Assembly (NCBI RefSeq): GCF_039555335.1
Contig: NC_092642.1
Location: 10,488,752-10,552,751, forward strand
From: Amphiura filiformis
Lineage: Eukaryota; Echinodermata; Ophiuroidea; Amphilepidida; Amphiuridae
DNA: 64,000 nt
Direction: 5' to 3'
The notes under the pieces were generated by a model. That model was not told the DNA's origin, searched no databases, and saw only the letters and a list, made by a program, of their open reading frames with translations. The position numbers and the translations under genes were made by a program. Positions 1,916 to 57,451 of the stretch are shown piece by piece (within the stretch, counting starts at the first letter, position 1; each line of letters begins with the position of its first letter).

Positions 1916-8936
<7,021 letters not shown>

Positions 8937-15911: not shown

Positions 15912-18900
15912 TTTCAATTGAAGGAGTACCCTTACAATAAAATCAAAACATAGCTAGAAAATACACTGCAAGCAAAACATTATATAGTGCACGACTACCC
16001 GTAATAAACCAAATTATTATTTCTATCCGTGTAAAACTGCTCTTATTCGAGTTAATACCCAGATAGCAACACTACGTTGGCCCAACGTTGGTCCAGCGTG
16101 AGCGAACTGACCTTTCTACGTTGGGCCAACGTTGCTTTTCGACATTGGCAGCCAACCTCCATAATGTTGGGCCAACGTCGATCCAACATTGACCCAACCG
16201 TAATACAGATGTAATTTGCGACGTTGGGCCAACATCAAATCTTTGATGTTGGGCCAACGTTATTAATCCATCCATTGACCAACGTTGATCCAACCATTAG
16301 CCAACGTACGTTAATCCAACCTTTGGCAAACAAGCCCAAATGAGACAAAATCATGGGAAAAAAAAAAAGTTACTTGTGTATACTATGCTTTTTCCAAGTC
16401 TTAAGTTACTTGGCTCTCTATTTTACAACGCAGACAAATTAACTACCTTTATTTACACAAGTCACTACCTTAATTTTCCAACCGGGGTTCGAACGTTGGC
16501 ATATTTTACAACGCAGACAAATTAACTACCTTTATTTACACAAGTCACTACCTTAATTTTCCAACCGGGGTTCGAACGTTGGCATATTGACCATCAATAT
16601 AAGGTTGGCACAACAACGTTGGACCAACGTTGGCATGCCGACCGTCATTTTAAGGTTGACTGGCTACGTTGGCTCGACGTTGGCCTACCGACCATCATTT
16701 AAGGTTGGCGCTACAACGTTGGCGTTGTCATTTTAATGTTGGCTGGCTACGTTGGATTGACGTTGGCATAACAACGTCGACCCAACCCTGATTCAATGTT
16801 GTCATGTCAACGTTGGTCCAACGTTGGCTTGGCGTCGGCTTACCGACCGCGACCATGCCAACCATTGCCAACGTTGGGGCAACGTTGTCTTGCTATCTGG
16901 GTAATGACATCCTCACATCACTTGACAATGGTCAAATCACAGCTTTGATTCTTCTCGATTTAAGTGCTGCATTTGACACTGTTGACCATAATATTCTTCT
17001 CTCCCGTCTTCACTATTATCTCGGCATTCAAGAGCTTGCCCTGGACTGGTGCAAACCATACCTTACAAATAGGACGCAAAATGTTCGCATTGGCAATGCT
17101 ACTTCTCATTCTACCACTCTTGATTACTCTGTACCTCAAGGCTCTGTACTTGGACCTCGGTGGTTTACCATTTACACCTACCCTGTACGGGATATAATTT
17201 TTCGCCATCAATTGAATTATCATGTTTATGCGAACGACACACAACTTTATTTGTCATTTGAATCTTCTCAACATATTGCTAATTCTGCAATTGCTTCTCT
17301 TGAAATTTGTATCAGTGAAATCCGTAATTGGATGAAATCAAACTTCTTGAAGTTAAATGATGATAAAACAGAATTTCTTCTGTTCGGATCCCACCAACAG
17401 CTCTCTAAAATCAACATTGAAAATGTTTGCATCGGTGACTCTGCAAAATTGCCCTATCTTCCAAAGCACGCAATTTAGGTGCATTTTTTGACACTCACAC
17501 ATGACCATGCAACCTCATATCTCTAATGTCATTGTTCACTGAAAGTTCAGCAACTCAAGGCAAGTACTTATTGATTTATTGATCAAATATTGGTTTTCCC
17601 TCATTTTTGACTGTAACTCCACAACTGTTGTCTGTGCTGAAATAAAATTTCCAGTACAATAGTTGTAGTCCTTGCCCCTATAATATACATATCTTACTTG
17701 TCACCAATGTGCTATAATTTTTGAGAAAAATGCAAAAAATAGGCACAAAATTGGGCAGGTGTAGTACCCCTTAAGATAGGCCTATATCATTATTGTACGG
17801 ATGCGCAGTGTAGCACAAATATACGTAATAATCGCACGAATGTTTATCTCCTAAAACAGGAAAGTTCAAATTCGTCAACCATGCTATCTTCGACGGCCCC
17901 GATTTTGCTGCATTCCGAGGACCATATAACCCAGAATTCAAAGAGGTGACACTCAAAGGGCACGGACCACCTGGACATCAAAAGAAATTCCCAGGTATTC
18001 TTAATAATTATTGAAGCATAATTTCTTCAGAATATTTTATGTTCCCTTGATTAAAAAAAAAACTTTTCAAACCCTAAGCATAGATTAAAGCATTAAGATT
18101 GGATCCCGGAGGGGACTAGAATTAGCCTCTCCAGTTTTATTTGATATAGCTACACCATACCTCAAATCTCATGAATACTTGGCGTAGCATTTAATTAGGC
18201 GCCGCTTCAATTCGCGAAAGTTCGCTTAAGGGGTACTACACCCTCAATAAATGTGTGACTATTTTTTCATTTTTCAAAACCATAACACGCTGGTAATAAA
18301 AGTTATGTATATTAGGGTAAGTGAATCCATTACTACACTGAAATTTCAGTAACCCAAGAGAAGTGGTTCGATACTTATGATAGAAAATGAGGTACCGCTA
18401 GGATGTACCTCATTTCCTATCATATTTACTGAACCGCTTGTCTTGAGTCACTGAAATTTCAGTATAGTAATTGGATTCCTTGCCCCAATAATATACATAA
18501 CCTTTTTTACCAGTGTGTTATTACCTTTTGAGAAAAATGCAAAAATAGTCACAAATTTACCACAGGGGTGTAGTACCCCCTTAAAGTATTTACGTACACA
18601 CGTACAAAATTATTGAAAGACGCCGCAAAGATGCGTGCACGAAAATCTGCGTCATCAAACTGACGTCATTGCCACGCTATGGTGAAAAATGGTATAGATC
18701 AAAATATAAAATCGGGAAAACACCTAATTAATATTTTACAAACCAAAATACAAATGATAAGCGTGTTTTAAAGACAAAATACCTTTACCATTCTTTTAAA
18801 TAGATGACAAAAAGTAATTTACATACATAAGAATCACGAAGATTAATTTTGATATTTCTGATTTTGTTGCTCTGCAAAGGTGGTTATGAAGAGTTTGCAA

Positions 18901-27291: not shown

Positions 27292-27491
27292 NNNNNNNNN
27301 NNNNNNNNNNNNNNNNNNNNNNNNNNNNNNNNNNNNNNNNNNNNNNNNNNNNNNNNNNNNNNNNNNNNNNNNNNNNNNNNNNNNNNNNNNNNNNNNNNNN
27401 NNNNNNNNNNNNNNNNNNNNNNNNNNNNNNNNNNNNNNNNNNNNNNNNNNNNNNNNNNNNNNNNNNNNNNNNNNNNNNNNNNNNNNNNNNN
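27292..27491. other. Assembly gap (200 N)
   Basis: Exactly 200 unknown bases, probably a placeholder length. It lies between the 3' end of the second ABM-like gene and the last P450 exon seen, where the missing P450 exons would be expected. The sequence just right of it (GGTAGTGTGGATTTTAA) matches the reverse complement of about 63595-63640, a dispersed repeat. Confidence 0.97.
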
Positions 27492-28481: not shown

Positions 28482-31400
28482 CTGAAAGACATTAAGATCA
28501 CAAGTGCAAAGAACATCTGATCAAGACGAAAGTTAAGCTGCTAAAATAATAATTTATTACCAGATATATGATACCCCGGTATTTGAATTTTATCTTACCT
28601 TTTGTGTAATACCTGTCACACAATAAAAATAATAATTATTATTAGTAATAATTAGTAGTAATTATTAGTAGTAATTATTAGTAGTAATTATTAGTAGTAA
28701 TTATTAGTAGTAATTATTATTAATTATTATTAATTATTATTATTAGTAGTAGTAATTATTAATTATTATTAATTATTATTAGTAGTAATTATTAGTAATA
28801 ATTATTAATAATTCCATCTCAACACAAAATTAATACATAAATTTTTGGTCACAATCTTTATCTGGAGACCGAAAATTTGAGGTAACATCAACTAATTTTG
28901 AGTTGATATCATATGTTAAATTAATTAATTATGAAGTGTACCAAACCAGATGAACTTTCATGCAGGTATCTTCTTCTTTGGGCCATCTTTATCACCAGAC
29001 ATGATACTTGTGTTTTATCTTACCTGTCCTATGAGTTCCCTTTGTGTGAGAGGCATCTTCTTCTTTGGGTCATCTTTATCACCAGACATGACACTTGTGT
29101 TTTATCTTACCTGTCCTATGAGTTCCCTTTGTGTGAGAGGCATCTTCTTCTTTGGGTCATCTTTATCACCAGACATGATACTTGTGTTTTATCTTACCTG
29201 TCCTATGAGTTCCCTTTGTGTGAGAGGCATCTTCTTCTTTGGGTCATCTTTATCACCAGACATGATACTTGTGTTTTATCTTACCTGTCCTATGAGTTCC
29301 CTTTGTGTGAGAGGCATCTTCTTCTTTGGGTCATCTTTATCACCAGACATGATACTTGTGTTTTATCTTACCTGTCCTATGAGTTCCCTTTGTGTGAGAG
29401 GTATCTTCTTCTTTGGGTCATCTTTATCACCAGACATGATACTTGTGTTTTATCTTACCTGTCCTATGAGTTCCCTTTGTGTGAGAGGTATCTTCTTCTT
29501 TGGGTCATCTTTATCACCAGACATGATACTTGTGTTTTATCTTACCTGTCCTATGAGTTCCCTTTGTGTGAGAGGCATCTTCTTCTTTGGGTCATCTTTA
29601 TCACCAGATATGACACTTGTGTTTTATCTTACCTGTCCTATGAGTTCCCTTTGTGTGAGAGGTATCTTCTTCTTTGGGTCATCTTTATCACCAGACATGA
29701 TACTTGTGTTTTATCTTACCTGTCCTATGAGTTCCCTTTGTGTGAGAGGTATCTTCTTCTTTGGGCCATCTTTATCACCAGACATGATACTTGTGTTTTA
29801 TCTTACCTGTCCTATGAGTTCCCTTTGTGTGAGAGTTATCTTCTTCTTTGGGTCATCTTTATCACCAGACATGATACTTGTGTTTTATCTTACCTGTGCT
29901 ATGAGTTCCCTTTGTGTGAGAGGTATCTTCTTCTTTGGGTCATCTTTATCACCAGACATGATACTTGTGTTTTATCTTACCTGTCCTATGAGTTCCCTTT
30001 GTGTGAGAGGTATCTTCTTCTTTGGGTCATCTTTATCACCAGACATGATACTTGTGTTTTATCTTACCTGTCCTATGAGTTCCCTTTGTGTGAGAGGCAT
30101 CTTCTTCTTTGGGTCATCTTTATCACCAGACATGATACTTGTGTTTTATCTTACCTGTCCTATGAGTTCCCTTTGTGAGAGGCATCTTCTTCTTTGGGTC
30201 ATCTTTTTATCACCAGATATGATACTTGTGTTTTATCTTACCTGTCCTATGAGTTCCCTTTGTGTGAGAGGCATCTTCTTCTTTGGGCCATCTTTATCAC
30301 CAGACATGATACTTGTGTTTTATCTTACCTGTCCTATGAGTTCCCTTTGTGTGAGAGGCATCTTCTTCTTTGGGTCATCTTTATCACCAGATATGATACT
30401 TGTGTTTTATCTTACCTGTCCTATGAGTTCCCTTTGTGTGAGAGGCATCTTCTTCTTTGGGCCATCTTTATCACCAGACATGATACTTGTGTTTTATCTT
30501 ACCTGTCCTATGAGTTCCCTTTGTGTGAGAGGCATCTTCTTCTTTGGGCCATCTTTATCACCAGACATGATACTTGTGTTTTATCTTACCAGTCCTATGA
30601 GTTCCCTTTGTGTGAGAGGCATCTTCTTCTTTGGGTCATCTTTATCACCAGACATGATACTTGTGTTTTATCTTACCTGTCCTATGAGTTCCCTTTGTGT
30701 GAGAGGTATCTTCTTTTTTGGGTCATCTTTATCACCAGACATGATACTTGTGTTTTATCTTACCTGTCCTATGAGTTCCCTTTGTGTGAGAGGCATCTTC
30801 TTCTTTGGGTCATCTTTATCACCAGACATGATACTTGTGTTTTATCTTACCTGTCCTATGAGTTCCCTTTGTGTGAGAGGCATCTTCTTCTTTGGGTCAT
30901 CTTTATCACCAGACATGATACTTGTGTTTTATCTTACCTGTCCTATGAGTTCCCTTTGTGTGAGAGGTATCTTCTTCTTTGGGTCATTTTTATCACCAGA
31001 CATGATACTTGTGTTTTATCTTACCTGTCCTATGAGTTCCCTTTGTGTGAGAGGTATCTTCTTCTTTGGGTCATCTTTATCACCAGACATGATACTTGTG
31101 TTTTATCTTACCTGTCCTATGAGTTCCCTTTTGTGAGAGGTATCTTCTTCTTTGGGTCATCTTTATCACCAGACATGATACTTGTGTTTTATCTTACCTG
31201 TCCTATGAGTTCCCTTTGTGTGAGAGGCATCTTCTTCTTTGGGCCATCTTTATCACCAGACATGATACTTGTGTTTTATCTTACCTGTCCTATGAGTTCC
31301 CTTTGTGTGAGAGGTATCTTCTTCTTTGGGTCATCTTTATCACCAGACATGATACTTGTGTTTTATCTTACCTGTCCTATGAGTTCCCTTTGTGTGAGAG

Positions 31401-34400
31401 GTATCTTCTTCTTTGGGTCATCTTTATCACCAGACATGATACTTGTGTTTTATCTTACCTGTCCTATGAGTTCCTTTGTGTGAGAGGCATCTTCTTCTTT
31501 GGGTCATCTTTATCACCAGACATGATACTTGTGTTTTATCTTACCTGTCCTATGAGTTCAGCTTGTGTGAGAGGTATCTTCTTCTTTGGGCCATCATTTA
31601 CAGAGTCATCTCCTGTCTCTGCAGCGTCCATCATTAACTGAAGAAAATCCTTTTTCTGCAAAATAATTCCACATTTCAAATAAGCTTAATTATAAATAAG
31701 TTTACCTACAATAAGGTTCCTATAATATAGATTCAATGATAGAAAATGTATATCATTATCCATGTTTTTTTTTTTGGGGTGCTAAAATTAAACCAGTTTA
31801 ATGTTGCAAAATACTGAAATACAAACTAAACAACCATGGTCAACAATACTCAAATATAAGTTCATACGTGCTGGTGATGTCAATATTGTACATATATATA
31901 TATATATATATACTGGAAAATCCACAAAGGTATTAGCCAAGGATGATAGAGAGTACCCCCGTTTAGTGCGGGAGGCCATCCAGATCAAGAAGAAATCGCC
32001 AGAACTAAATCCCGATCAAGACATGACATACCGTAAACGTTCGCCTAATGGCGCAATGGGTTCCCTTGACATAAGTGGAATTTTAAGCACAACCTATAAG
32101 TGCCCTCCCGAAAAAAATTCCCACCAGCAAATAAGGGCACGGAACTTAAATTCTTGTTGGGATATCAGAGGAGGGAGCTCTCTATTTGCACATGAAATTT
32201 AACCCAAAGCCAAAGGAGCCCAGATCGCCATTAGCTTAACGTTTACTGATATAATAATAAAATTATTTGTCTATTGATCGCTTGCTGATTGTTTGATGGT
32301 GCAGAATATATTTATACATAAATTACTGATAACTCCCATAAAATCTTCATGTGACTGATTACTGAAACACATACCCCAGTTCCTCCACTCTCTGTCCTTA
32401 ATTCAATGGCTTTTCTGACACAATTAGCAAAGAAATCCAGGTTTTCCTTCGGTACCATATCAAATACTCTGAATTTGTTGAGCAATGGGGATAGGAATGG
32501 AAACAATACTGCAAGTCAAAAAGGTGATAAGAACAGTTTGTAACCTATGATTTACAAAGTGCACATGAAAAAATACCATACCCTATAACTATTTTAACAC
32601 CACAGAATGTATATTCGTACTTTTTTGGTGGTATTTATATCGAACATAGTTATATAAGTTATATAGTAATGTGAAAGTAGTATTTCTAGTATTTGAGCGT
32701 GCACATATTATCTAAAATCTATTGTTTAGCGTGCGGGTTTTAGATAATGTATTGTTTAGCGTGCAGGTTTATATAAACATGCACGCGAAGTAGTTCGCGA
32801 AAATAATGCACGGGAGAAGAATACATAACGATGAATAGAAACGGACACTATAGAAGTATATTGTGCGATAATTACAAATCCACAAGCATTAATACACATA
32901 GGCTAGCCGACTTCACCAATTGTTACTAATAAATCACAAGATGGTCAAACCCAACTTTTCTTAACTAGAAATGCAACATAAATGTTGGTGTCACAGGTCC
33001 TATTTCCAACTTTTAGTATGCAGAAAGTACAAAAAAAATACATAAAAGAAAGAATACATAATTGAAGGTGGCCCCTGGAAATTAAAAAATGATGATTTCC
33101 AAGAGTCATGTTGTGTATTGTTGTTGTATATAATAAATGAAACTGTTATATGAATGAAAAAGAAGACTTATTTGTATAGCCCCACAACTATTGCTATGAA
33201 CTGATTGGGTCATATGAAGAAAATATTATCTCTTTTTAAGGCAAATTATAAAAATTAAAATAAACATCTCTATGGCACTGGCATTGGTGGCGTTAGAGAT
33301 CTTTATCACTTTGGACCACAATGGCCTCATCCCAATGGCATAGTTCAATAATTTCAATTAAACAATAATAGTGCAAAATTTGACCTCAAGTTACAGAGAA
33401 TAAGTTTTTGTACACAAATTTTCAAAGGTCATTCAATGAATGTGCAAATGTATTGAGGATAAAGGACTGTGCCTTGATAGATGAGCATGTTTTGGATCCT
33501 AGTGTATGGCAATACTCACTCCTAAGGATAAATCCAATGTTCTTCAAGTCCATATTAATTAACTTTTTGGTGTGATGCAGGAATACATCATCTGGATCTC
33601 TCTGACAGTCTGATTCTAACCCATAAGCACAGCATGCAACAATGTCAAGAACATAGGATCCAAAAACTCTGGAAAGTTTAAAAAAAGAGAATGAATATTT
33701 ATCATAGTGCTGTTAGATATTAAAAGCGCTTCTTTATTTACTACCAAAAAAGCCCCCACCTCAGCTCACTTTTTGAAACTTGGTCCCATTTGTAAGAGGT
33801 ACTGATTTAAGCTTAATCATTATCGAGCAAACTGACATATGAACATTTTGAGAGAGAAATAAATCAGGACTCAGCATGGATTGAACCATGGTCGCTGGAT
33901 TACTGGTCCAGGTCAGTCTTATCCCTGCTGAGGGGGCGTGGCCTAGTGGTTAAGGCATTGGATTGTGAATCCAAGGGTTGAGGATTCGAATCCCGGGTCC
34001 GCCTGAGCTCGGCTGGCTCCTTGTGTCCTTGAGCAAGGCACTTCACTCTACTTGCTAGTGCTTCGGAGGGCACTTTAAGCCGTCGGTCCCGTGTACATGT
34101 ATATTTTCTCACATTAATGCAGTGTGCACATTAAAGAACGTCACAGGCTATCCGAAAAAGAGCAGGGGATCATCCAGGTACTGTTGACTGTACATCAAAA
34201 ATACACTCATCTACTCTAGGTTCCAGAGTAAAAATAAGTACAGCTTGTCTGTACTTGAGTGCGATAATACTCATACATATGAGGGAGGCAGTAATATGGA
34301 AGAAGAAGGTGAAGCACATCCTTCCAAGAATCCTTCTTCATTATTTACTATTTATCAACTTAAAACATTTCCAGAAGTGTTATGTATCTTTTATGTGCAG

Positions 34401-37400
34401 ATGCGATATTAATTTGTAAGCTTTCTGGAATGACCAGAAAGGTTATTATCTTGTTCTTGCATGGTAAACCTATAGCCTGTATATGTTTTGTTTCATAATA
34501 TTAGTTTCATGATTAATGATTGAATTATATGAATATAACAAGTAGGCATGTAAGCACTGATTTGCTGTTCATGTTCAAAATGTGACAAAGTTTCAAAATT
34601 GACTATTGGGCTTTTTAACTTGCAGCTTTTTATACATTGTCAACATTTTTGGGTAGATTTCTGTTCTTTTTATCATGTAGCCAAACAGCTCTACGCTTGG
34701 AAAGTCATCAGGTTTTGAAGAATAAAATGAAAAATAGATGTTTGAAAACTTTATCAGTAATTTATTTTTGAAACTGGCTGGTCACAGCTACTGCGTAACT
34801 CTAATATACTTGGTAAACTCTGATGTGCATTATTGTAGTTTTGTTTATTTTTTTCTTCTCTTAGGATTTTTAAGGGGATGGATGACCCCATGTAAAAATT
34901 TAGGGGGAGGGGGAAGGGTCCCCTCCACCTCCCCATCCTATAGGCACTCAACCTTTATGTTGCTAGGGGTGATTGGTGGCCATTTTAGTCAGAAGTACAA
35001 TTTATTTGATGAAATACTGTAGAAATTTATATATTACATAATAAGAACATTCGATCTAGAGAGACTTACTCTTTAGAGTCAAAACTTTTTCCCTCCTTGT
35101 TCTTTTCATCCAAAATTTCCATCAAGATATCACATTTACTATTCATAGCAGGTACCATCTGAAAATAATAACATGCAAATATGTAAATACATGTATGGAC
35201 CTGCTACTATTTACAACCATACTGATGCATCTATTTACGGGTAACTTTTATGGGAGAAATGTACATAATGCACACAAAAATAACTGTAATGTCCCCACAA
35301 GGAATGATGTTTATGGATGTTAATTTTTGGAATGCATCCATAAATCCAACCACACTTTTAGCATGCATCCATAATCCAAACTAACTTTTAGCATGCATCC
35401 ATAATCCAAACTAACTTTTAGCATGCATCCATAATCCAAACTAACTTTTAGTATGCATCCATAATCCAAACTAACTTTTAGTATGCATCCATAATCCAAA
35501 CTAACTTTAAGTATGCATCCATAATCCAAACTAACTTTTAGTATGCATCCATAATCCAAACTAACTTTTAGTATGCATCCATAATCCAAACTAACTTTTA
35601 GTATGCATCCATAATCCAAACTAACTTTTAGTATGCATCCATAATCCAAACTAACTTTTAGTATGCATCCATAATCCAAACTAACTTTTAGTATGCATCC
35701 ATAATCCAAACTAACTTTTAGTATGCATCCATAATCCAAACTAACTTTTAGTATGCATCCATAATCCAAACTAACTTTTAGTATGCATCCATAATCCAAA
35801 CTAACTTTTAGTATGCATCCATAATCCAAACTAACTTTTAGTATGCATCCATAATCCAAACTAACTTTTAGTATGCATCCATAATCCAAACTAACTTTTA
35901 GTATGCATCCATAATCCAAACTAACTTTTAGTATGCATCCATAATCCAAACTAACTTTTAGTATGCATCCATAATCCAAACTAACTTTTAGTATGCATCC
36001 ATAATCCAAACTAACTTTTAGTATGCATCCATTATCCAAACTAACTTTTAGTATGCATCCATAATCCAAACTAACTTTTAGTATGCATCCATAATCCAAA
36101 CTAACTTTTAGTATGCATCCATAATCCAAACTAACTTTTAGTATGCATCCATAATCCAAACTAACTTTTAGTATGCATCCATAATCCAAACTAACTTTTA
36201 GTATGCATCCATAATCCAAACTAACTTTTAGTATGCATCCATAATCCAAACTAACTTTAGTATGCATCCATAATCCAAACTAACTTTTAGTATGCATCCA
36301 TAATCCAAACTAACTTTTAGTATGCATCCATAATCCAAACTAACTTTTAGTATGCATCCATAATCCAAACTAACTTTTAGTATGCATCCATAATCCAAAC
36401 TAACTTTTAGTATGCATCCATAATCCAAACTAACTTTTAGTATGCATCCATAATCCAAACTAACTTTTAGTATGCATCCATAATCCAAACTAACTTTTAG
36501 TATGCATCCATAATCCAAACTAACTGTTAGTATGCATCCATAATCCAAACTAACTTTTAGTATGCATCCATAATCCAAACTAACTTTTAGTATGCATCCA
36601 TAATCCAAACTAACTTTTAGTATGCATCCATAATCCAAACTAACTTTTAGTATGCATCCATAATCCAAACTAACTTTTAGTATGCATCCATAATCCAAAC
36701 TAACTTTTAGTATGCATCCATAATCCAAACTAACTTTTAGTATGCATCCATAATCCAAACTAACTTTTAGTATGCATCCATAATCCAAACTAACTTTTAG
36801 TATGCATCCATAATCCAAACTAACTTTTAGTATGCATCCATAATCCAAACTAACTTTTAGTATGCATCCATAATCCAAACTAACTTTTAGTATGCATCCA
36901 TATTCCAAACTAACTTTTAGTATGCATCCATAATCCAAACTAACTTTTAGTATGCATCCATAATCCAAACTAACTTTTAGTATGCATCCATAATCCAAAC
37001 TAACTTTTAGTATGCATCCATAATCCAAACTAACTTTTAGTATGCATCCATAATCCAAACTAACTTTTAGTATGCATCCATAATCCAAACTAACTTTTAG
37101 TATGCATCCATAATCCAAACTAACTTTTATTATGCATCCATAATCCAAACTAACTTTTAGTATGCATCCATAATCCAAACTAACTTTTAGTATGCATCCA
37201 TAATCCAAACTAACTTTTAGTATGCATCCATAATCCAAACTAACTTTTAGTATGCATCCATAATCCAAACTAACTTTTAGTATGCATCCATAATCCAAAC
37301 TAACTTTTAGTATGCATCCATAATCCAAACTAACTTTTAGTATGCATCCATAATCCAAACTAAGTTTTAGTATGCATCCATAATCCAAACTAACTTTTAG

Positions 37401-40400
37401 TTTGCATCCATAAAACAAACTAACTTTTAGTATGTATCCATAAAATCCAAACCACCGTTTGGTATGCATCCATTATCCATATAAATCCAACCCAACATTT
37501 GGCATATATTCAAAATCATGATAATAATCCAAACCAACTTTTGGTGTGTATCCATAATCCAAACCAACTTTTGGCATGTATCCATAATCCAAACCAACTT
37601 TTAGTGTGTATCCATAATCCAAACCAACTTTTGGTGTGTATCCATAATCCAAACCAACTTTTGGTGTGTATCCATAATCCAAACCAACTTTTGGAATTTA
37701 TTTCCATAATCTAAACCAGCCTTTGGTGCATCCATATTCCAAACCAACACACCTACCCTACACTCTTCTCTACACGTTATCGAAACGTACACAGTAAGTG
37801 CAATTTATTGGATCAGAAATAAGAATCATTTGATTGACTAATTCATCTAACCAATCCTGATGAGTTTGTTCAACCACAAACAAACCTGTTTCATCTTAGA
37901 TCCACTGAACGTTGGGCTCATATAACTCCTTCCTCTCTTCCAGACTTCACCAGAAGCTTCTATTATAGTGTCGGCCATGTAGGGCATTGAAAATGATTGT
38001 AGCTGCAAATAAGACATTAAATTTAGGAGATTTTTAGAACAGCTTCATCACAAGAACTCCTTCTCTTCATTTATTGCATTTGACATGGTTCTCATAATTC
38101 CATAAACTTTCAACATGCTAGATGCCTACGGTGTCTATAAACATGCATTGTGGGGAAAATTTGGTGCACGAGTTGCTGGCAGGGTCGAACTCGTGAAAAT
38201 TTGGTCACATATACTATCATACTTGAGTGTCCTCAGATATTAATATTGATCAAATGTTCTTGAGGATTTTGACACTGTTTTTGGTTTGACTTTTAAAATT
38301 TTGGCCCAAAAATTTCAAAATGTTTGAACTTCGTTATTTTCTGCCTAAATACAACAGCGGATTAGATTAGCCTGGAAAAAATAGAGACATTGCGATTTCC
38401 AAACATACTATGGAACGTCTATGCAATCTATTCAAAGTCACTCTCCTGTGACAGGATTTTGAATAGATTGCACGGGCATTCAATACATATGCTTGGAAAT
38501 CACAGTCTCTATATTATTAAATTAATAGAGCACTAACATGCTGAAAAAGACAAACATTTTAAACTTAGGATAAATCTATGAGGCTATTTTATAAAGGTAA
38601 GTGACTTGGTGCTGTGAGACGTTTTCATTTTTTATTTGCTATAAATCCTCAGAAATTGATCAGAACATGTTAAACATGTACACTTGCTACCTTTTCTGGA
38701 CATTGGGAAAAAGAAGATATTTATTTGAAGCAAAATATTTACTCTTTTCCTCTTAAAACACATTTCCATCCTAAACAAATTTTATCGCCCCGCTTCACTG
38801 TTGTTTGATGTGATAATTTATTAATTTTTCTAACAAAACATAAATTTTCAATTCTAGACCTAGACAATACCAACAACTATACATTTGTTAGCTATTTGCA
38901 ACATAGATTTTCCCCTCTTTATCAAATTTTCCTGCCTTTTTGTATTACTTTTTATTCTATAAATTATATATTTATGTGCAGATTGAGGGCACCTTTTACA
39001 TATATTTTAAGTTTAATTCAACCCAGTTTATTCCTTTCATTTCATGATAAAATGTTGCTGCGTGGAATCACTACACCTCCTCCACAGTGAGTCTGTTACC
39101 TTCCCAGCATTGAATAAAGCTGATACCCATTTGTATGGATGGGGATAGGCAATAAGGGTGGAAAACCTTGCCTAAGTGGTCAACACCACAGAGACCTGAA
39201 CCCATGACATTGAGCTCCCTCACGATTATGATTCAAAGCCTCAGACCATTGTGCCACTGTGCCCCATATAGTCCCCATAGTCCCCATATACCCACTACTA
39301 ATTTGTTTGTAGCAGAAGTTGAAAATATATTAACAACCAACTTACAGATCTCCTTTGAAAACTTGGAAACTCTTTGATGAAAATCTGTCTGACCATATCC
39401 GCATCTGATATTACTAATGCTGGTGTTTTCCCAAAAGATATGCTGCAGAAACAAAATAACAATACACAAATAACACATGTGAATAAAATATATGTGCCCA
39501 CCACAAGACAAATAATTAAAGTGTCATGTCACTGTGCATGTTTGCTGGTGGTTACGTGACATTTCAATATTGAAAATGTGGACTTTTATACACATATCTG
39601 ACAATTATTGACATCTTGACATCGTACCTATTATCAGGGTTGGCGATTGTTTTTGATTTTTTTTTTTAATAAAAAAAATTTGATTTATTTGATTTAAATT
39701 AGATTTTTTTTTTTTTTTATCGATTTTTTTTTTTTTTTTTTTTTATTCCAAGAACTGCTATACCCCATGGAATGCTAGACATATGTGCAATCCTATCAGA
39801 TATTTACAAAAACTTAAAACATGTTTATACATGTGAAAATTTCAAAGGAAAATTTCAAAGAAAAAAATTGATTTATTTGATTTTTTTTTAATCGATTTTT
39901 TTTTTTATTACAAGAACTGCTATACCCCATGGAATGCTAGACATATGTGCAATCCTATCAGATATTTACAAAAACTTAAAACATGTTTATACATGTGAAA
40001 ATTTCAAAGAAAATTTGGTAAAATCGTTGGGAAAAACCTGTATGCACCTTGAAGATGAATTTTAAGCAATAGATAAAATGACATCATAGAGGTATTACCT
40101 AGCCGGGACACCGGCTAGGTCTTGTGATGCTATCGGATCTTTCTTCTTCTTCTTCTTCTTTCTTCTGGCAACACATTTCAAAATGCTTCTTCTCCTACAT
40201 GTTACATCCTACAATGACGTCACTTGCACATATGCATCGGCTATATCCAGTGTCTATAGGATATTCACAAATTTGGGGTCAAAGGTCATTAAGGGGTCAT
40301 TTCGTATAAAACCAAATATCTTCAAAATGCTTCTTCTCCTACATATTACATCCTACAATGACGTCACTTGCACATATGCATCGGCTATATCCAGTGCCTA

Positions 40401-47154: not shown

Positions 47155-47700
47155 CGTCAGCCTGTAAGTCATTTTTTGTCATTTTGAGAACAAAGTACAA
47201 CATATGTGACCCCTCGGCACAACTGAGCCCTGAAATTGTCAATCATCATTTTTGAGATATTCAACCAAAATATTCTGCTTGAAATTAAATATCAAGTACT
47301 AAAGACATGATATACATCATTTTAAAGCTAATATTAGCTTTAAAATGATGTATATCATGTCTTTAGTACTTGATATTTAAGTAGTGAAAAATCAATAAAA
47401 CAATCAATAAATCCTTTGTTTCCTATTGTTTATTGTTAAGTTCGATGGATCATATCTCAATAGTGGCACTGGCGACATCCAGGCTCAGTTGTGCCGAGGG
47501 GTCACATATGGTTCAAGCATGCATTTAAACATAATTATTCACCAATTTTTACACAAGAACAAATGATAAAGATACTAATAAAATGAAATATTAAATCCAA
47601 AATAATTAGGGTGATTACGTAACTGATAAATGCTTGAACCACATTTTGTTCTTTGTTCTCAAAATTACAAAAAATGACTTGGGCGATTAGCGTAGCAGGC
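47155..47700. mobile_element. Nested MITEs with a perfect 96-bp palindrome
   Basis: The outer element has arms AAGTCATTTTTTGT and TTTTGAGAACAAAG (about 47167-47193), inverted at about 47650-47682. The inner element 47208-47509 has termini CATATGTGACCCCTCGGCAC and GTGCCGAGGGGTCACATATG. Inside it, 47285-47380 is a perfect palindrome with 48-base arms and no spacer. Confidence 0.8.
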
Positions 47701-47836
47701 TAACATTATTCCATTATTAGCTAAGAAGCTACAATAACACTTACCTTAAATGTGGGGATGTGACACAATCTGGTCCATAAAGGCCAAATGAGGCATTTTT
47801 TGAAAATTAAGTTACGACATGTATAGAATTATTACC

Positions 47837-48422
47837 TTAAGGTGGTACTACACTCCTTGATAAATTTATGACTATTTTTACATTTTTCTTGAAAAAATAA
47901 TAACACACTGGTAACAAAAGTTATGTATATTATAGGGGTAAGGAACCCGCAGTTACTACACTGGAATTTCAGTGAGTCAGGTCAAGTGGTACTTTATTTA
48001 TGATAAGAAAAGAGGTATACCGCTAGAATCCCGAGGTACTCAGTACAAATGACCATACTGGGACGTGCCGCAAACATGGGTAGCATTTTCAGCCTTCTGG
48101 TATATCAATGACCACCTTTTCAAAGCCTATTTTGGTATATGAATGGGTCCTTTTTTCACAATTTTCCTTAATCTAGCCAAAATTTTCAAAATTTCCCCAG
48201 TTATGGGTCCACTTCCAAAATCTCAATGGCACGTCCCTACCAAAACCAAACTTGAGTACCCCGGGCTAGAATGTACCTCATTTCTTGACAATGAGCGAAC
48301 CTCTTGTCTTGAATCAATGAAATTTCAGTTAAGTAATTGGATTCCTTGCCACTATGTATTTACTTTTTGAGAAAAATGCAAAATTAGTCACAAAATTTAT
48401 CAGGGGTGTAGTACCACCTTAA
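47837..48422. mobile_element. TTAA-flanked MITE (GTACTACACCC family) interrupted by another element
   Basis: It begins TTAAGGTGGTACTACACTCC and ends GGGGTGTAGTACCACCTTAA, matching 18226-18584. At its centre (48030-48264) lies an element with CCCGAGGTACTC/GAGTACCCCGG termini, flanked by an 8-base direct repeat GCTAGAAT. The uninterrupted copy reads GCTAGGAT there. Confidence 0.8.
48030..48264. mobile_element. Nested CCCGGGGTACTC element with 8-bp target duplication
   Basis: The termini GGTACTC and GAGTACC are inverted, and GCTAGAAT flanks both sides (48022-48029 and 48265-48272). It shares GTTTGGTTTTGGTAG, CATATACCAAAATAGGCTTT and related text with 63676-64000, in the opposite orientation. 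An 8-bp duplication would suit a hAT-type element (inference). Confidence 0.7.
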
Positions 48423-48584
48423 TACAAACATTATAATGAAAAAACATAATGAAAACATTAAAGTCTAGCATACCCCGGAACTTGGTTCTAAAGTTATGAA
48501 ATATTTTGATGTCTATTTTCTTACACCATCAAACAGAAGTTAAACATCATTACTGGAAATAGAATGGGAATAGGCATTTCGAGA

Positions 48585-48826
48585 TCCACAGCCTCATCCC
48601 CCTACCTTTCTCAAAAAAAGTTGAGATTTTTATACCTCTGATTATAATGTTTATGTACCAAAGATTTCTTGCAGATTAATTCGTTTAGCAAAAATATCGT
48701 CAAATTTGAATTTGGTCCTGGTATACCAGAACCAAATTACAACAGTGGTCTGCCCAATCATGCATAACTCGCAAACACAAAATCGGAATCAACTGAAATT
48801 TTGGGAGTAAGCTTTTTCGTGGATAT
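48585..48826 (-). repeat. Dispersed repeat R1, copy split by the LTR element
   Basis: On the minus strand this matches about 2270-2600. Its continuation resumes at 54213-54260 on the far side of the LTR retrotransposon (CATAAAAAGAGAATACTAAG against the complement of CATCCTCTTTTTATG). Confidence 0.8.
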
Positions 48827-49252
48827 TGTAAAAGTATGGGGGTTCCGAAAATGAGGAGGCGTGGGCCGGGATTTTTAAGTCCCTCTGGATATTAATAAAA
48901 ATAAATAAACAGTGCAAATATTCGTACTCTATAAATTGGCTAGTTTTAGCGTGGTTTTACACCAAAACATTTTCGTGCACATAGACAAATAAACAAAGAT
49001 AAATCCAAAATGTAAACAGGGTCATATCTGAAGTAAAATTTGGATCACTTCAAAGCTGCAAAACTATTTTGAACAGACATTAAGATAAACAAACAAAACA
49101 AACCTTTTCTTTCCACAAACAAGACAAAAGTATATCACAAGTTCATATCACAAATAAAAGCAATTGATAGTCCGATTTTTCAGTCAAAAGTCAGTATAGA
49201 AATATAGTTCAGTATTTAGTTAGCATGTTATTAATTGTTCTCTGGCATATAT

Positions 49253-49999
49253 TTATAGTGGAGAAGATGAAAATCGTGAAACAAATGTCCTCCAGACCGG
49301 AATAGAGTTTTTAGATTCTGATGATACACGTGGTGGTTCACGTTCACGATGATAGTCATTTGCAGAAGAAATCTTGCACGGAGAACGAGAGGAGATGGGC
49401 ATCCCAGATGGTGGAGTTGAAATGTCCAAACTCAGTGGTAGTGATGATTCCATGGTCCTACCTGTACACTTGTCAACAGCTGTGGTGGATGAAGTGATTG
49501 GAGCTTCAAGTTCAACTGTTGAATTAGATATTGAAAGTTTTGTATTGCACATTGATGAATCATTTGGTGAAACAGTTTTAGCGGGTCGTTTACAACCATT
49601 TACATGTTTGCCATCAAGACCAGTTACATTCACTGCTTCCGGAGTCCGTCCCAAAATATTGACAATATCAAACATGACTATTTTTCCCTGTCCGACACTA
49701 GTACGTTGGTGTTTTGGGTTCGGTTTAGAAATTCCCGATTTGTGTATAAACACATCTTGTCCATTATCTGTCCTGGTAATGAATCCATAGCCTTTGGTGA
49801 CATACCATTTCACAGCTCCTTCAACATTTCTTGCAGTTGGTACTGGTGTATTATCAGATGGCATAGAAATAATAGGAGTCACAATATCATGCACTATCTT
49901 TGCATTCCTGCATTTACAAGGCCGATGATTCACAAGTTGATTTTCCAGTTCTTTAACTTTGCTTTCCAGTTGCTGTAATCTCTGTAATAAAGTCTCCAT
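49253..49999 (-). CDS. LTR-encoded coiled-coil plus cold-shock-domain (Y-box-like) protein
   Basis: The predicted protein has 248 residues from METLLQRLQQ. Residues 3-22 form leucine heptads (LLQRLQQLESKVKELENQL), a likely coiled coil. Next comes a CKCRNAK basic patch, then a cold-shock domain at about 58-129: GAVKWYVTKGYGFITRTDNG, with RNP1 KGYGFI (69-74) and RNP2 VFIH (83-86), and NPKHQRTSVGQGK and EAVNVTGLDG as in eukaryotic Y-box proteins. The C-terminal half is Ser/Pro-rich and probably disordered. Cold-shock domains bind single-stranded nucleic acid, so this may chaperone or package the element RNA (inference). The frame could be extended 32 codons upstream, but this Met lies after a plausible 5' leader. 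It is the only coding capacity of the element, and an intact reading frame here argues for recent selection or recent insertion. Confidence 0.88.
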   Translation of the reverse strand: METLLQRLQQLESKVKELENQLVNHRPCKCRNAKIVHDIVTPIISMPSDNTPVPTARNVEGAVKWYVTKGYGFITRTDNGQDVFIHKSGISKPNPKHQRTSVGQGKIVMFDIVNILGRTPEAVNVTGLDGKHVNGCKRPAKTVSPNDSSMCNTKLSISNSTVELEAPITSSTTAVDKCTGRTMESSLPLSLDISTPPSGMPISSRSPCKISSANDYHREREPPRVSSESKNSIPVWRTFVSRFSSSPL

Positions 50000-50101
50000 T
50001 GTAAAAACCAATGACGATATATCGATATAAACTGATGACTTGAGACAAAATGAAGGATAAAACAGATGATGACACAGAGATATTTGTTGCAACAATATAT
50101 T

Positions 50102-50110
50102 TATTTTATA
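50102..50110 (-). promoter_or_regulatory. TATA-like box in the 3' LTR
   Basis: On the minus strand TATAAAATA lies about 103 bases upstream of the CSD start codon, the right distance for transcription to begin about 70-80 bases before the ATG. The same box is in the 5' LTR at 52953-52961. This is positional inference only. Confidence 0.45.
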
Positions 50111-51362
50111 TGAAAAGTCCTAAAGCAAAATGGTGGAGGTGGTCTAGCAAGGAACTGGCATGTTGGAGACCAGAGCTAGACTGACAAAACATCCCAGGTC
50201 AAAAACAAAGGGAGCATTATGCTAATTAGTAAATCTCTACTACAACTTTTATTATCACCAAAACATATAAACCATAGGCACTGAGTGGCATTGACCTTGA
50301 TAAAGAGATGGGTGACCTATGCAAATAAGAGCAACATGAGACTGGAAAGTGAAAAGGTCAACTCCCATTACATAATCAGTTTCCAGGCAGAGAACATGAG
50401 ATAGGCACATGTCTTATTAAGCATGACTGGGGTAAAATTGATGTAAACAAACCTTGACTGAACTTGGAACAACTCATGCATTTTTGAGGAAAGAAACACA
50501 AATAATTTGCAATACAAGTAAACTTCCAAAATGAAAACAACATTTGTCACTTCCAACACATTTATGAGGAAGTATACCTTGATTAATAAGATGACACAAA
50601 ATAATAGATAAATTAAGATCAGGTGATGACCTTAATAAAAAGTTTCTAAATTTAGAAATGTTGTCACACTGCAGAACATTTTTCAGTTCTACAATAATCA
50701 TGTCTTTCAAAATGACATATCCAAACAACAAAACTTAATAAACTTTCAAAATATCAAAACAAAACAATGCATAATCAAATTCTGCTGATTGCTATTAATT
50801 AAATAAATTGGTTGTGTACACAATTAGATCAATATTTTTAATGATCCTCAACCAAAAACAATCATAAACCTTTCAGCCAAACAAAATAATATTAATTAGT
50901 GACCAAAGTTGATGACCTTATGAATTTACACTAAGGGCGCATACTACCAAAAACTTTTCAGGGCACATAACACTATAATAACATAAAAATAATACACATC
51001 AAGAAACAGCTGATCGTTAACAATGCAGGGTTTTACATGATTGCAGAAATGATGGATTTGACACCATGCGAAAAGATAAATAAACAAGAAAATTTGGAAA
51101 GTTCAAGACATGTCCTTTAGCAGCCCCATTAATTTTGCGGGAAGAGATCATAAGGTTTTTCAGGCAAACCACACAGAAAATGACCAAGTTTAATGATTGG
51201 CGAAGCATACTACACCCTAAACACAGGCTAGTCCTCTTTAAAAATCATACTGCAGTCACACTCATGCAGTTCCTTTAATTCGTTATCTACATTAACCGTC
51301 AAAATTCTGTGCGAAAAAATACCCTATTTTTGTCTTAATTACTCGGCCCAAATTTTGTTACA

Positions 51363-51374
51363 GAGCCCCCACCG
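51363..51374 (-). promoter_or_regulatory. Candidate polypurine tract
   Basis: On the sense (minus) strand CGGTGGGGGCTC immediately precedes the 3' LTR's TGTAAC. It is G-rich, as expected for a plus-strand primer, but short and not purely purine. Confidence 0.45.
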
Positions 51375-51658
51375 AGGACGATGCCGCCCCGGCATAAAGG
51401 CTGACATCAACAAAAAGGGACAAAATTTGGGCTGCTACACATCCTGTAACTTTAAAAAAATGGGTTAAACAAAACAAGCGTTAACGATCAGTGTAATGAC
51501 ATAATAATAATGATAACAGTACCAGCCAGTACACAATAATAAATGAGCATATAAATTTCTACATATTTCCAAAGGTATAAAAACGATGAAAACAATGTCA
51601 CTTTACACATTTTGCCAACCCATCCCACACAACAAAACAATACTATCCAAAAAACCTC

Positions 51659-51676
51659 ATCCCACTTCTGACACCA
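51659..51676 (-). promoter_or_regulatory. Primer binding site complementary to tRNA-Leu
   Basis: The sense sequence TGGTGTCAGAAGTGGGAT starts three bases after the 5' LTR. It is the exact complement of an 18-base ATCCCACTTCTGACACCA 3' end, as in metazoan tRNA-Leu including the CCA tail (tRNA end recalled, not searched). This identifies the element as a tRNA-primed LTR retroelement and sets its strand. Confidence 0.9.
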
Positions 51677-51679
51677 TTT

Positions 51680-54212
51680 TGTAAAAGTATGGGGGTTCCG
51701 AAAATGAGGAGGCGTGGGCCGGGATTTTTAAGTCCCTCTGGATATTAATAAAAATAAATAAACAGTGCAAATATTCAGTACTCTATAAATTGGCTAGTTT
51801 TAGCGTGGTTTTACACCAAAACATTTTCGTGCACATAGACAAATAAACAAAGATAAATCCAAAATGTAAACAGGGTCATATCTGAAGTAAAATTTGGATC
51901 ACTTCAAAGCTGCAAAACTATTTTGAACAGACATTAAGATAAACAAACAAAACAAACCTTTTCTTTCCACAAACAAGACAAAAGTATATCACAAGTTCAT
52001 ATCACAAATAAAAGCAATTGATAGTCCGATTTTTCAGTCAAAAGTCAGTATAGAAATATAGTTCAGTATTTAGTTAGCATGTTATTAATTGTTCTCTGGC
52101 ATATATTTATAGTGGAGAAGATGAAAATCGTGAAACAAATGTCCTCCAGACCGGAATAGAGTTTTTAGATTCTGATGATACACGTGGTGGTTCACGTTCA
52201 CGATGATAGTCATTTGCAGAAGAAATCTTGCACGGAGAACGAGAGGAGATGGGCATCCCAGATGGTGGAGTTGAAATGTCCAAACTCAGTGGTAGTGATG
52301 ATTCCATGGTCCTACCTGTACACTTGTCAACAGCTGTGGTGGATGAAGTGATTGGAGCTTCAAGTTCAACTGTTGAATTAGATATTGAAAGTTTTGTATT
52401 GCACATTGATGAATCATTTGGTGAAACAGTTTTAGCGGTCGTTTACAACCATTTACATGTTTGCCATCAAGACCAGTTACATTCACTGCTTCCGAGTCCG
52501 TCCCAAAATATTGACAATATCAAACATGACTATTTTTCCCTGTCCGACACTAGCACGTTGGTGTTTTGGGTTCGGTTTAGAAATTCCGATTTGTGTATAA
52601 ACACATCTTGTCCATTATCTGTCCTGGTAATGAATCCATAGCCTTTGGTGACATACCATTTCACAGCTCCTTCAACATTTCTTGCAGTTGGTACTGGTGT
52701 ATTATCAGATGGCATAGAAATAATAGGAGTCACAATATCATGCACTATCTTTGCATTCCTGCATTTACAAGGCCGATGATTCACAAGTTGATTTTCCAGT
52801 TCTTTAACTTTGCTTTCCAGTTGCTGTAATCTCTGTAATAAAGTCTCCATTGTAAAAACCAATGACGATATATCGATATAAACTGATGACTTGAGACAAA
52901 ATGAAGGATAAAACAGATGATGACACAGAGATATTTGTTGCAACAATATATTTATTTTATATGAAAAGTCCTAAAGCAAAATGGTGGAGGTGGTCTAGCA
53001 AGGAACTGGCATGTTGGAGACCAGAGCTAGACTGACAAAACATCCCAGGTCAAAAACAAAGGGAGCATTATGCTAATTAGTAAATCTCTACTACAACTTT
53101 TATTATCACCAAAACATATAAACCATAGGCACTGAGTGGCATTGACCTTGATAAAGAGATGGGTGACCTATGCAAATAAGAGCAACATGAGACTGGAAAG
53201 TGAAAAGGTCAACTCCCATTACATAATCAGTTTCCAGGCAGAGAACATGAGATAGGCACATGTCTTATTAAGCATGACTGGGGTAAAATTGATGTAAACA
53301 AACCTTGACTGAACTTGGAACAACTCATGCATTTTTGAGGAAAGAAACACAAATAATTTGCAATACAAGTAAACTTCCAAAATGAAAACAACATTTGTCA
53401 CTTCCAACACATTTATGAGGAAGTATACCTTGATTAATAAGATGACACAAAATAATAGATAAATTAAGATCAGGTGATGACCTTAATAAAAAGTTTCTAA
53501 ATTTAGAAATGTTGTCACACTGCAGAACATTTTCAGTTCTACAATAATCATGTCTTTCAAAATGACATATCCAAACAACAAAACTTAATAAACTTTCAAA
53601 ATATCAAAACAAAACAATGCATAATCAAATTCTGCTGATTGCTATTAATTAAATAAATTGGTTGTGTACACAATTAGATCAATATTTTTAATGATCCTCA
53701 ACCAAAAACAATCATAAACCTTTCAGCCAAACAAAATAATATTAATTAGTGACCAAAGTTGATGACCTTATGAATTTACACTAAGGGCGCATACTACCAA
53801 AAACTTTTCAGGGCACATAACACTATAATAACATAAAAATAATACACATCAAGAAACAGCTGATCGTTAACAATGCAGGGTTTTACATGATTGCAGAAAT
53901 GATGGATTTGACACCATGCTAAAAGATAAATAAACAAGAAAATTTGGAAAGTTCAAGACATGTCCTTTAGCAGCCCCATTAATTTTGCGGGAAGAGATCA
54001 TAAGGTTTTTCAGGCAAACCACACAGAAAATGACCAAGTTTAATGATTGGCGGAGCATACTTCTCCCTAAACACAGGCTAGTCCTCTTTAAAAATCATAC
54101 TGCAGTCACACTCATGCAGTTCCTTTAATTCGTTATCTAAATTAACCGTCAAAATTCTGTGCGAAAAAATACCCTATTTTTGTCTTAATTACTCGGCCCA
54201 AATTTTGTTACA
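51680..54212 (-). repeat. 5' LTR (sense orientation), CSD frame broken
   Basis: It is almost identical to the other LTR. Relative to it there are single-base losses near 52437, 52493, 52586 and 53531, one inserted base near 51778, and a few substitutions, including a cluster near 54052-54064. Confidence 0.93.
52107..52850 (-). pseudogene. Frameshifted CSD gene copy in the 5' LTR
   Basis: The N-terminal coiled coil and most of the cold-shock domain are intact, through DVFIHKS. A base is missing at about 52586 (CCC to CC), followed by two more single-base losses (GG to G near 52493, GGG to GG near 52437). All three are in short homopolymers, so either real decay or sequencing error could explain them. 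Confidence 0.85.
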
Positions 54213-54216
54213 ATAT

Positions 54217-54730
54217 CTACTAACAAAGGTCATAAAAAGAGAATACTAAGGATCATGAAATCCTTCTTCAAATAACAAAGATTTATGATGCATCCAAATA
54301 TTCAACATCAACATCCACTAAAATGTCTAACTGCCATAATGCTAAATGCTAACAATTCATGTCATATACCTGAAATATAGACTAAAACATACCGTCAGTT
54401 CTTGCAGTACAACTTCCAATATAATCAAACAGCAATTTTGCACACAATAATTGTAGTTCAATACAGAGCAGAGCCTATCACAGTCTTGTCTATATGGATA
54501 TCGATGTTTAAATGATATAAATCCAGGGTCCACTTTCAACATACAATCTGTTTGCCATGCTATTCAATTCTTTTTTCAGGGTCTATGTGACCTTTTTGTA
54601 TACAATCTCATTGGTACCTATTTCTATATTTGTCATGTGACTGTAGGAAGGTTAGGAAGTGTTCATAAATACTTGGGGGGATCAAAAAAAATTTGGGTCT
54701 AAAAAGGGGGGATAAAAAAAAATTCAGTCC
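54217..54730. other. Right flank of LTR element
   Basis: The first 45 bases continue repeat R1. The remainder shows no gene. Confidence 0.5.
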
Positions 54731-54937: not shown

Positions 54938-57451
54938 TAGGGGGGTGATCTCTGAACCACTTTGTGAGGTATTTTGTCAAAACTTGTGGAAATAGTTGTA
55001 GTGGCATTGTGTTAGTGGGAAAATGCCTTTTGTTTCATCCGATTCGGTTATTTTACCCCCTGGACATGGGGTCTGAAGATATCGAGCTTTTTTGCATGTT
55101 TTAGCACAGGTCATATAGGGCCAATACAATAATTATTTCCATGTTATTTTTGTAACATCACTTGTTATTATTAAATCTTTTACAAAATGGTATCAATGTT
55201 TATTGGAAAGTATCATTCTTTTGATATCAAAAACGGAAAGATCCAACACCCCCACTTGACATAACAATGACGTCATAATATAAAATTTAGATGTCATATT
55301 TGTGGGTTGCACCAATTAAACGCATGGAAGGTGTTACGCAATGCTTTTTTCCACCACACGGAATAAAGGGTGGTGCAATATTTATGTGTACCCCAGGGTC
55401 AATGGGGGGTGGGGGGGGGGTGTGGAGTGGGGGGGGGGCAATGATTTTTTGGCATAAAAAAAAGCATTTTGTGGCAGGTTGAATGGGGACAAGCGATTTT
55501 TGGCAGGTCGAAGAAAGAGGGGGAGGGGCAAGCGATTTTGGCACAGATCTTTTGGGCACCGTTTCTATATTATGCTCATAAAAGGTGTAGGAAAATGTTC
55601 AAATATGCAAAATCACTGTTCTGGCATTATATGATAAGACAATCTAAGGTTTTAAACTTGGGTTCCCCAAAATCATATGTGTAAGGGGGAGGGGGCAAAG
55701 AATCTTTTGTTTTGGGCATGTCAAAGGGTGGTTGGGCAAAGGTTTTTTGGCACGTCGAAAGGGGGTAAAGTTTTTTTGGCACAGCCAAAGGGGGGGGGTG
55801 GGCAAACGATTTTTGGCAGACCATTTTGGGAATTGACCACCCCGGGGTACATATGATTATTGCACCACCCTTATAAGGAATATACTCTTAATTTCAGCGT
55901 CTTGGATCAAGTTTCTACCATAAACAATATGCCCAAATTTGTGTAGGTGTAAAATGTATAGATTAGAATTGGGTATTTTATGTTCCATATTTGAAACAAA
56001 CAATCTTAATTGCAATATTTCGTGCCCAAGAACCAAAACTGGGTGCTATACTCTATAACATTGGGGTACAAATATACAAGTTCCAAAGTTGGCAATAGGG
56101 GTCTGCTTTAATTGCATATTCGTGACTTTCTTGTGATGGCCTTCAAGAGATGTGGCTATTTTCAGAAAAAGAGATGGGTTTTTTTTACTATGCTTGAAGA
56201 ATTTAGGCAAATATGAATAAGTGGCGGATGTATGATTTGTTTATGAATGACATTTGCTGTAATCAAGGAAATGATGCAAATGACTCCATTTCAGTCTAGA
56301 TTGACACCTGGCAAAATCAAATTCACTACATTTTGACGAAAAAATGAAAAAATTTAGACTTCACACATGTGGCCAAAATTTCTTCCAATCAACAAAATAG
56401 AAATGAAATGACCCCAAGAGGTCAAAGTTCCATTGATTTTAGTAGTCAGTATAGTATTATATTATGGGTGATAATTGGTTGCGAGCACATTTATAAGGGA
56501 TCCAATGCTGAAGGTCGGTAGAACCTTCATATGGAACATGGGGAAAGTAAAAGATAATATTCAATAAAATGGCTGAAAATAACTGAACAATTTCCATGTC
56601 AATCTTCAAGGTAAAATTGCCCGTCCCAGGTCACTGTTCAACAATTTTACAGATTTTCATGGCCTCTTGTCATGGATATTTCATTGGTTTCCGACCTCAT
56701 ATAGGGCCACCTCTCAACCGGAGTAGAGTGGGTGGTTACCCAGGCTGATGTACAAGTTGCATCCACCCCCCCACCCCGGTTGGACATTTTTGTTTACTTT
56801 TTTTTAAATCATGACATATTTCGCCACTACCAATGATTACCTACACTGATTTAATTCAATTAGGAAATGTTTACTAATACTCTTGTGGAAGGGGTTGGAT
56901 TAGGGAGTCAAAATGTTTTCCCGCTGCATTTCAGCTAAACTTTATAATTAAGAGATTAAAATTCAGAATCCAACCAACCCCTACCATGAAAATATTTCTG
57001 AATATTCCATCAGAAACATCAGTGATTCTTATTATTCATTAGTCTGAGAGCACTGAAAACAATTATCATAAGTTAAATCACATACTTTATATAGGAGAGC
57101 TTCAAAACACATCTGCCGGTTGCTCGCCAGTTCCGCCCGGTTCTACCGTTTAGATCCGGTTTGCATTGTTCTAAACAATATGGAATGCGGTACAACCGCC
57201 ACTATACTGCCGGTCAACCAGCGGCTGAGTTTTGAAGCCACCCATAAACTTTAATATTTAGCTAACATGCAGCCTATATACTGTACATTACAATGCACTA
57301 AAATGGGCAAAACGGGAAAACTTCAGAAGCCATGTCCAGGGGGTAAAATGTCCGAATTGAATGAAATAAAGGCCATTTTCCCACTCACACCAAGTCACTA
57401 CAATGCTTTTCACAAGTATTTTAAAACTTTTGTCCGAGATCACCCCCCCTA
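54938..57451. mobile_element. 2.5-kb TIR element with 7-bp target duplication, class unknown
   Basis: The left end TAGGGGGGTGATCTC is inverted at the right end (GAGATCACCCCCCCTA, one extra C). ATATAAC flanks both sides (54931-54937 and 57452-57458). I find no transposase. Further MITEs lie inside: 55368-55870 and about 57100-57237 (arms CTTCAAAAC / GTTTTGAAG with GCCGGTTG / CAACCAGCGGC). Confidence 0.8.
55368..55870. mobile_element. G-rich MITE related to the splice-donor MITE
   Basis: The termini GGGTGGTGCAATATTTATG and CATATGATTATTGCACCACCC resemble those of 5873-6054, and the interior repeats GGGCAAGCGATTTTTGGCA-type units. It is nested inside the 2.5-kb element. Confidence 0.7.

Follow-up and report, generated by a model that had tools for sequence, protein, structure and literature searches.

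A long terminal repeat retrotransposon of Amphiura filiformis with a cold-shock-domain gene inside its terminal repeats

We describe here a long terminal repeat (LTR) retrotransposon in the genome of the brittle star Amphiura filiformis. It lies within a 64,000-nucleotide stretch of contig NC_092642.1 (assembly GCF_039555335.1, positions 10,488,752 to 10,552,751 of the forward strand), which was analysed as a whole and is referred to as the window; coordinates below are those of the window. The element is complete, occupies 5386 bp of the minus strand (48827-54212), and carries a gene for a protein with a Y-box-type cold-shock domain (CSD) within its LTRs, which are separated by an interior of 317 bp.

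Anatomy of the element

Direct-repeat alignment defines a 5' LTR of 2533 bp (51680-54212) and a 3' LTR of 2536 bp (48827-51362), both on the minus strand and both with TG...CA ends. Six substitutions and five one-base insertions or deletions (indels) distinguish them over 2537 alignment columns, and they are 99.57% identical. The element is bordered by a target site duplication, ATAT, present at 48823-48826 where the left flank ends in ...GGATAT, and at 54213-54216 where the right flank starts with ATATCT. The original prediction had the locus right, but the range that it gave, 48823 to 54216, includes these duplications. Between the LTRs, on the same strand, is the 317 bp interior (51363-51679), which contains a primer binding site of 18 bases (51659-51676, minus strand) that is an exact match to the complement of the 3' end of tRNA-Leu, including CCA. 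This site starts at interior base 4, following AAA, and is situated three bases from the 5' LTR; the next-best places for it on either strand of the window have five mismatches. The tRNA sequence behind the match is one that we take to be tRNA-Leu(CAA), and ARAGORN reads that sequence as tRNA-Leu with anticodon caa.

At its other end, the interior meets the 3' LTR in a G-rich tract, GGTGGGGGCTC, where a putative polypurine tract (GGTGGGGGC then TC; 51363-51382, minus strand) abuts the LTR. This tract is enclosed by a predicted 13-bp stem (51346-51432, minus strand) in which interior positions 51420-51432 pair with positions 51346-51358 of the 3' LTR. The stem is mildly unusual only, with a folding z-score of -1.88 and six of 200 shuffles folding equally well or better, and 13 of 776 further window pieces of 150 nt also contain such a repeat. 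The LTR structure of the locus is close to certain, and the anatomy that had been claimed for it, including the repeat lengths and ends, the ATAT duplication, the primer site and its spacing, and the size of the interior, is borne out in every part.

The interior has little room for coding, and no frame longer than 79 codons touches its 317 bp; the 79-codon frame runs from stop to stop and extends into the LTR. Neither gag nor pol was recognised in the element, as judged by length for the interior frames and by Pfam for the larger frames of the 3' LTR. The Pfam scan of the 3' LTR covered, besides the CSD gene, four sense frames of at least 60 codons and two antisense frames of at least 100 codons, none of which matches at the curated cut-off (weak matches have E values of 0.16 and 0.17). 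No second copy of the element or solo LTR was found in the window by blastn (E up to 0.01), which returned just a 22-bp match to the interior.

A cold-shock-domain gene within the terminal repeats

The 3' LTR contains an intact gene of 248 codons on the minus strand (49253-49999), with its ATG at 49999 and its stop at 49253, and the product has a Pfam CSD match with an E value of 8.7e-14, in agreement with the 248-codon, Y-box-like frame that the original prediction had read inside the LTR on this strand. From stop to stop the frame spans 288 codons, which is longer than any frame in 1000 dinucleotide-shuffled versions of the LTR (longest frame 96 on average, 198 at most). Codon-position asymmetry of the frame is 7.27, compared with 4.30-5.91 over LTR bases 1-1243.

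The CSD corresponds to residues 60-127 (49619-49822, minus strand) and is of Y-box type, as indicated by both Pfam and matches to solved structures. The best matches among solved structures are Y-box proteins (YB-1, E = 1.6e-16), and the best structure entry outside the Y-box and nuclease-sensitive element-binding names is 'Cold shock protein 2', with an E value of 5.8e-9; by sequence comparison, the domain is thus nearer to Y-box proteins than to other cold-shock entries. Zebrafish YB-1 is identical at 41 of the 84 residues aligned. All four residues taken here to contact RNA in YB-1 (W, F, F, and H) are kept in the CSD alignment, and the retention of these presumed contacts in a domain that has diverged so far from YB-1 suggests a period of time under constraint.

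The Y-box matches span residues 49-140 at most, and a predicted N-terminal leucine heptad helix (residues 2-24; 49928-49996, minus strand) falls outside them. The helix is suggested by single-sequence AlphaFold modelling, in which it is the only confident part (mean predicted local distance difference test score, pLDDT, of 89 for residues 1-20 and 49 for residues 21-30), and by a heptad run of seven residues, which is equalled by 42 of 5000 shuffles. The C-terminal 109 residues include 36 Ser/Thr and 11 Pro. Y-box proteins have C-terminal alternating basic and acidic repeats, and although the protein resembles YBX1/YB-1 in having a Y-box-type CSD, it differs both in its leucine helix and in having this Ser/Thr/Pro-bearing tail rather than repeats of that kind. 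Given that the helix lies beyond the Y-box matches, the capture of a host Y-box gene that the original prediction inferred is no more than a possible origin.

The 5' LTR contains the same gene (52530-52850, minus strand, by LTR alignment) but in a frameshifted form of 106 codons as assembled. One-base deletions between 52437 and 52586 shift the frame, which reflects either decay or sequencing error, and only the copy in the 3' LTR is open. The earlier proposal that each element carries two copies of the gene is therefore correct for the DNA but not for working genes. In LTR replication one RNA is the template for both LTRs, and the gene was thus aboard at the last transposition; the presence of six substitutions in about 2530 bases points to a recent insertion. 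Five of these six are packed into 221 bases close to the beginning of the LTR (LTR positions 73-293), a clustering matched by 0.145% of random placements. It may reflect either exchange with a second, diverged copy or a mixture of haplotypes in the assembly. Of the five indels, three are grouped within the gene, a proximity without statistical significance (8.65% of random placements).

Relatives were sought more widely. In IMG/VR, a search by the CSD protein gave 30 pattern stretches but no relatives, and searches by the primer-site DNA, by the LTR start, and for the tRNA-Leu gene end each gave nothing. Among bacterial and archaeal genomes, a pattern scan matched 53 stretches and identified a single relative, which is an ordinary Bacillus cold-shock locus. 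No LTR element bearing a cold-shock or Y-box gene was described in the titles and abstract openings that searches of the open-licence PubMed Central (PMC) literature returned, and the primer-site string had no match in a literature text search.

Position of the gene and models for the element

The location of the gene relative to the R, U3, and U5 regions depends on which of two TATA-like boxes serves as the promoter. The first, TATAAAAT, is at position 1253 of the 3' LTR (50103-50110, minus strand; 5' LTR counterpart 52954-52961), and is overlapped by a candidate polyadenylation signal, AATAAA, at LTR position 1258 (50100-50105, minus strand; counterpart 52951-52956). No ATG occurs from LTR position 1278 up to the gene ATG at 1364, which has an A at -3 and a G at +4. 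If the box at 1253 is the promoter, then the gene is in R/U5, and each genomic RNA would have a single CSD copy near its 5' end.

With confidence that is about evenly balanced, we propose that this is a young, non-autonomous LTR retrotransposon with a Y-box-type CSD gene in R/U5, mobilised by a Gypsy-type helper and encoding a CSD protein that serves the element's own RNA. Transcription would start about 30 bases past the first TATA-like box (LTR position 1253), such that the start in the 5' LTR lies past the AATAAA, and the same AATAAA would be met in the 3' LTR with the RNA ending after it. The resulting genomic RNA, of about 2.85 kb with these assumed ends, would have the CSD cistron at its head with the gene ATG as its first, and could double as the CSD mRNA. 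The protein would be multimerised through its leucine helix and would coat or stabilise its own RNA, aiding either translation or packaging. A role for the CSD protein in a ribonucleoprotein may be argued from this domain content and from the report that Y-box-binding protein 1 is a cofactor of HIV replication (PMC6040738), which makes a CSD plausible as retroelement cargo.

Because the element has no recognisable reverse transcriptase or integrase, these must be borrowed, and in the proposed scheme they would be supplied in trans by the Gypsy-type helper, which is suggested by two features only, the 4-bp duplication and the primer site. Animal Helenus elements likewise have 4-bp duplications, and the only elements whose primer sites resemble theirs are autonomous members of Gypsy, one of which, from an insect, uses tRNA-Leu (PMC10886601). 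A broader formulation is more tentative: that there is an LTR family without gag and pol in which a self-made RNA-binding protein, with a leucine helix and a CSD encoded in R/U5, marks its own RNA for the machinery of another element. The layout of such a protein would be analogous to that of the ORF1 protein of long interspersed nuclear elements (LINEs), and the gene, being present in both repeats, would persist in solo LTRs too.

Several observations weigh against the proposal of a young R/U5-coding element. The element is known here from one locus, and its putative polypurine tract, besides being short, does not consist of purines throughout. Codon-position asymmetry as high as that of the gene occurs in five of 207 segments of the window, and single-sequence AlphaFold gave no model of the CSD (mean pLDDT 38.2). 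It is the frameshifted copy in the 5' LTR that would head the element's own RNA. There are also earlier signals in the 3' LTR, with ATTAAA at LTR positions 84, 169, and 521 and AATAAA at 1110, and use of poly(A) motifs ahead of position 1258 would shorten the RNA and remove its 3' R. Lastly, the gene's stop codon is overlapped by a second TATA-like box, at LTR position 2106 (49252-49259, minus strand), which would place the gene in U3.

A first alternative, compatible with either position of the gene in the LTR, is that the gene is a passenger, a Y-box retrocopy or gene fragment that landed in an LTR of some otherwise ordinary non-autonomous element, was copied along, and brings no benefit to it. 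We consider this possible but somewhat doubtful. Helenus, Ajax, and Cassandra are proposed to have arisen through insertion of a short interspersed nuclear element (SINE) into an LTR (PMC10886601), and the frameshift in one of the two gene copies is what might be expected of a passenger. However, the frame in the 3' LTR is unbroken from ATG to stop, and the combination of divergence from YB-1 with retention of the presumed RNA contacts points to constraint over time.

A second alternative accepts the element as proposed but puts the gene in U3, with the TATA-like box at LTR position 2106 driving the genomic RNA; the gene would then be read either from the 3' end of that RNA or from a promoter internal to the element. 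The box, CTATAAATA, overlaps the stop codon, and R/U5 would then be about 400 bases long with every AATAAA and ATTAAA motif of the LTR in U3; variant poly(A) signals are present downstream of the box (AATATA at 2110, ACTAAA at 2143, and AAGAAA at 2252). There is, however, no canonical AATAAA or ATTAAA in the LTR downstream of position 2106, and it is the TATA-like box upstream of the gene that has the overlapping AATAAA and the ATG-free leader. We regard the U3 arrangement as rather unlikely, and on the strength of these sequence signals R/U5 is favoured over U3 as the probable location, by a factor of about two.

That this is not an LTR element but a Y-box gene region duplicated in tandem, or a single unit doubled artefactually by the assembly, is highly improbable and is rejected on the LTR anatomy, as although near-identical 2.5-kb repeats can arise by duplication and the window is a scaffold with a 200-N gap at 27292-27491, the TG...CA ends, ATAT duplication, 18-base primer site, and G-rich tract are expected of neither, the gap is more than 20 kb distant, and the LTRs differ at 11 places.

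Comparison with other elements, and the surrounding DNA

A familiar instance of a protein frame inside an LTR is the superantigen of mouse mammary tumour virus (MMTV), which is encoded in the U3 of an autonomous retrovirus, the arrangement that the U3 alternative above would follow. The original prediction drew this parallel, and it is apt in that both are protein frames within LTRs; it does not extend to the position, as the gene described here is probably in R/U5 (provided that the box at LTR position 1253 drives transcription), nor to the element, which is without recognised gag or pol, nor to the product, which is of RNA-binding type. The accompanying view that genes inside LTRs are rare also requires some adjustment, because LTRs with RNA-gene sequences have been published: that of Cassandra carries a 5S sequence, Helenus a tRNA-like sequence, and Ajax a 5S sequence, these together being termed TRIMp3 (PMC10886601). 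As in these, the LTR of the non-autonomous element described here holds a sequence of presumed cellular-gene origin, which is copied along with it; the element further resembles animal Helenus in having 4-bp duplications and Ajax in its use of tRNA-Leu, although Ajax duplications are 5 bp. The inserts in Cassandra, Helenus, and Ajax are taken to be RNA polymerase III (Pol III) promoters, whereas here there is a protein frame, and it is this protein gene in the LTR that sets the element apart. The possibility that the element has a Pol III promoter like those of Helenus, Ajax, or Cassandra is rejected, as no 5S- or tRNA-derived sequence was found in it, with ARAGORN reporting no tRNA and Rfam no matches (E up to 1, 48700-54300).

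Among described non-autonomous families, PbTRIM of ants is similar in having a non-coding interior, a tRNA-Leu primer site, and 4-bp duplications of which ATAT is the commonest, and its own helper is given as not known (PMC3532108). PbTRIM elements are much smaller, however, at 480-781 bp with LTRs of 152-184 bp and with no coding capacity reported, compared with 5386 bp and 2.5-kb coding LTRs here. The element does not fit readily into either of the established size classes. Terminal-repeat retrotransposons in miniature (TRIMs) are shorter than 1000 bp (PMC3532108), a limit that the element far exceeds, although it shares with them a non-coding interior inasmuch as the longest frame touching it has 79 codons. 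Large retrotransposon derivatives (LARDs) are likewise large non-autonomous LTR elements, but they typically have LTRs of about 4.4 kb and an interior of 3.5 kb (PMC3532108), and the 317 bp interior is well short of this. Bivalve TRIMs are described as lacking an unambiguous primer site (PMC6934838), and a mussel Steamer-like element uses tRNA-Asn (PMC11046912), not the tRNA-Leu that had been expected of Steamer-type elements.

Other features of the window include several tandem arrays. An 87-bp array of 30 copies with 97% matches (28964-31600) contains several open frames of up to 733 codons from stop to stop, and a 30-bp array of about 72 copies (35321-37479), with a more diverged part extending to 37748, has long minus-strand open frames. 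A satellite-like array at 11995-13872 has reported periods of 212 and 317, and two short arrays about 50 kb apart, at 5922-6008 (31 bp) and 55734-55794 (29 bp), have similar-looking G-rich units. Inverted repeats are represented by a perfect 48-bp repeat with no spacer at 47285-47380, possibly akin to a miniature inverted-repeat transposable element (MITE), with longer imperfect ones nearby at 47166-47680 and 47824-48435, and by a further possibly MITE-like pair of 34-nt arms, 88% complementary and 439 nt apart, at 55366-55872. There is a reverse transcriptase fragment at 16792-17478 (Pfam RVT_1, 4.9e-18) near an 83-bp perfect tandem pair (16419-16588), and a fragment matching Pfam DUF7153 (1.7e-10) at 26832-27239 adjoins the 200-N gap. 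The sole tRNA that ARAGORN finds in the window is a tRNA-His (gtg) at 33930-34005.

Non-autonomous LTR elements tend to be portrayed as bare cis-acting signals that borrow the proteins they need. Should further copies in the genome share this structure, the element would be an unusual example of a protein-coding gene carried in LTRs, and an RNA-binding protein borne in this way would illustrate a means by which such parasites could vie for a helper. It would also offer a natural example of a repeat that holds a host-like protein gene and survives even as a solo LTR, and as a unit of promoter plus gene it could spread through the genome.

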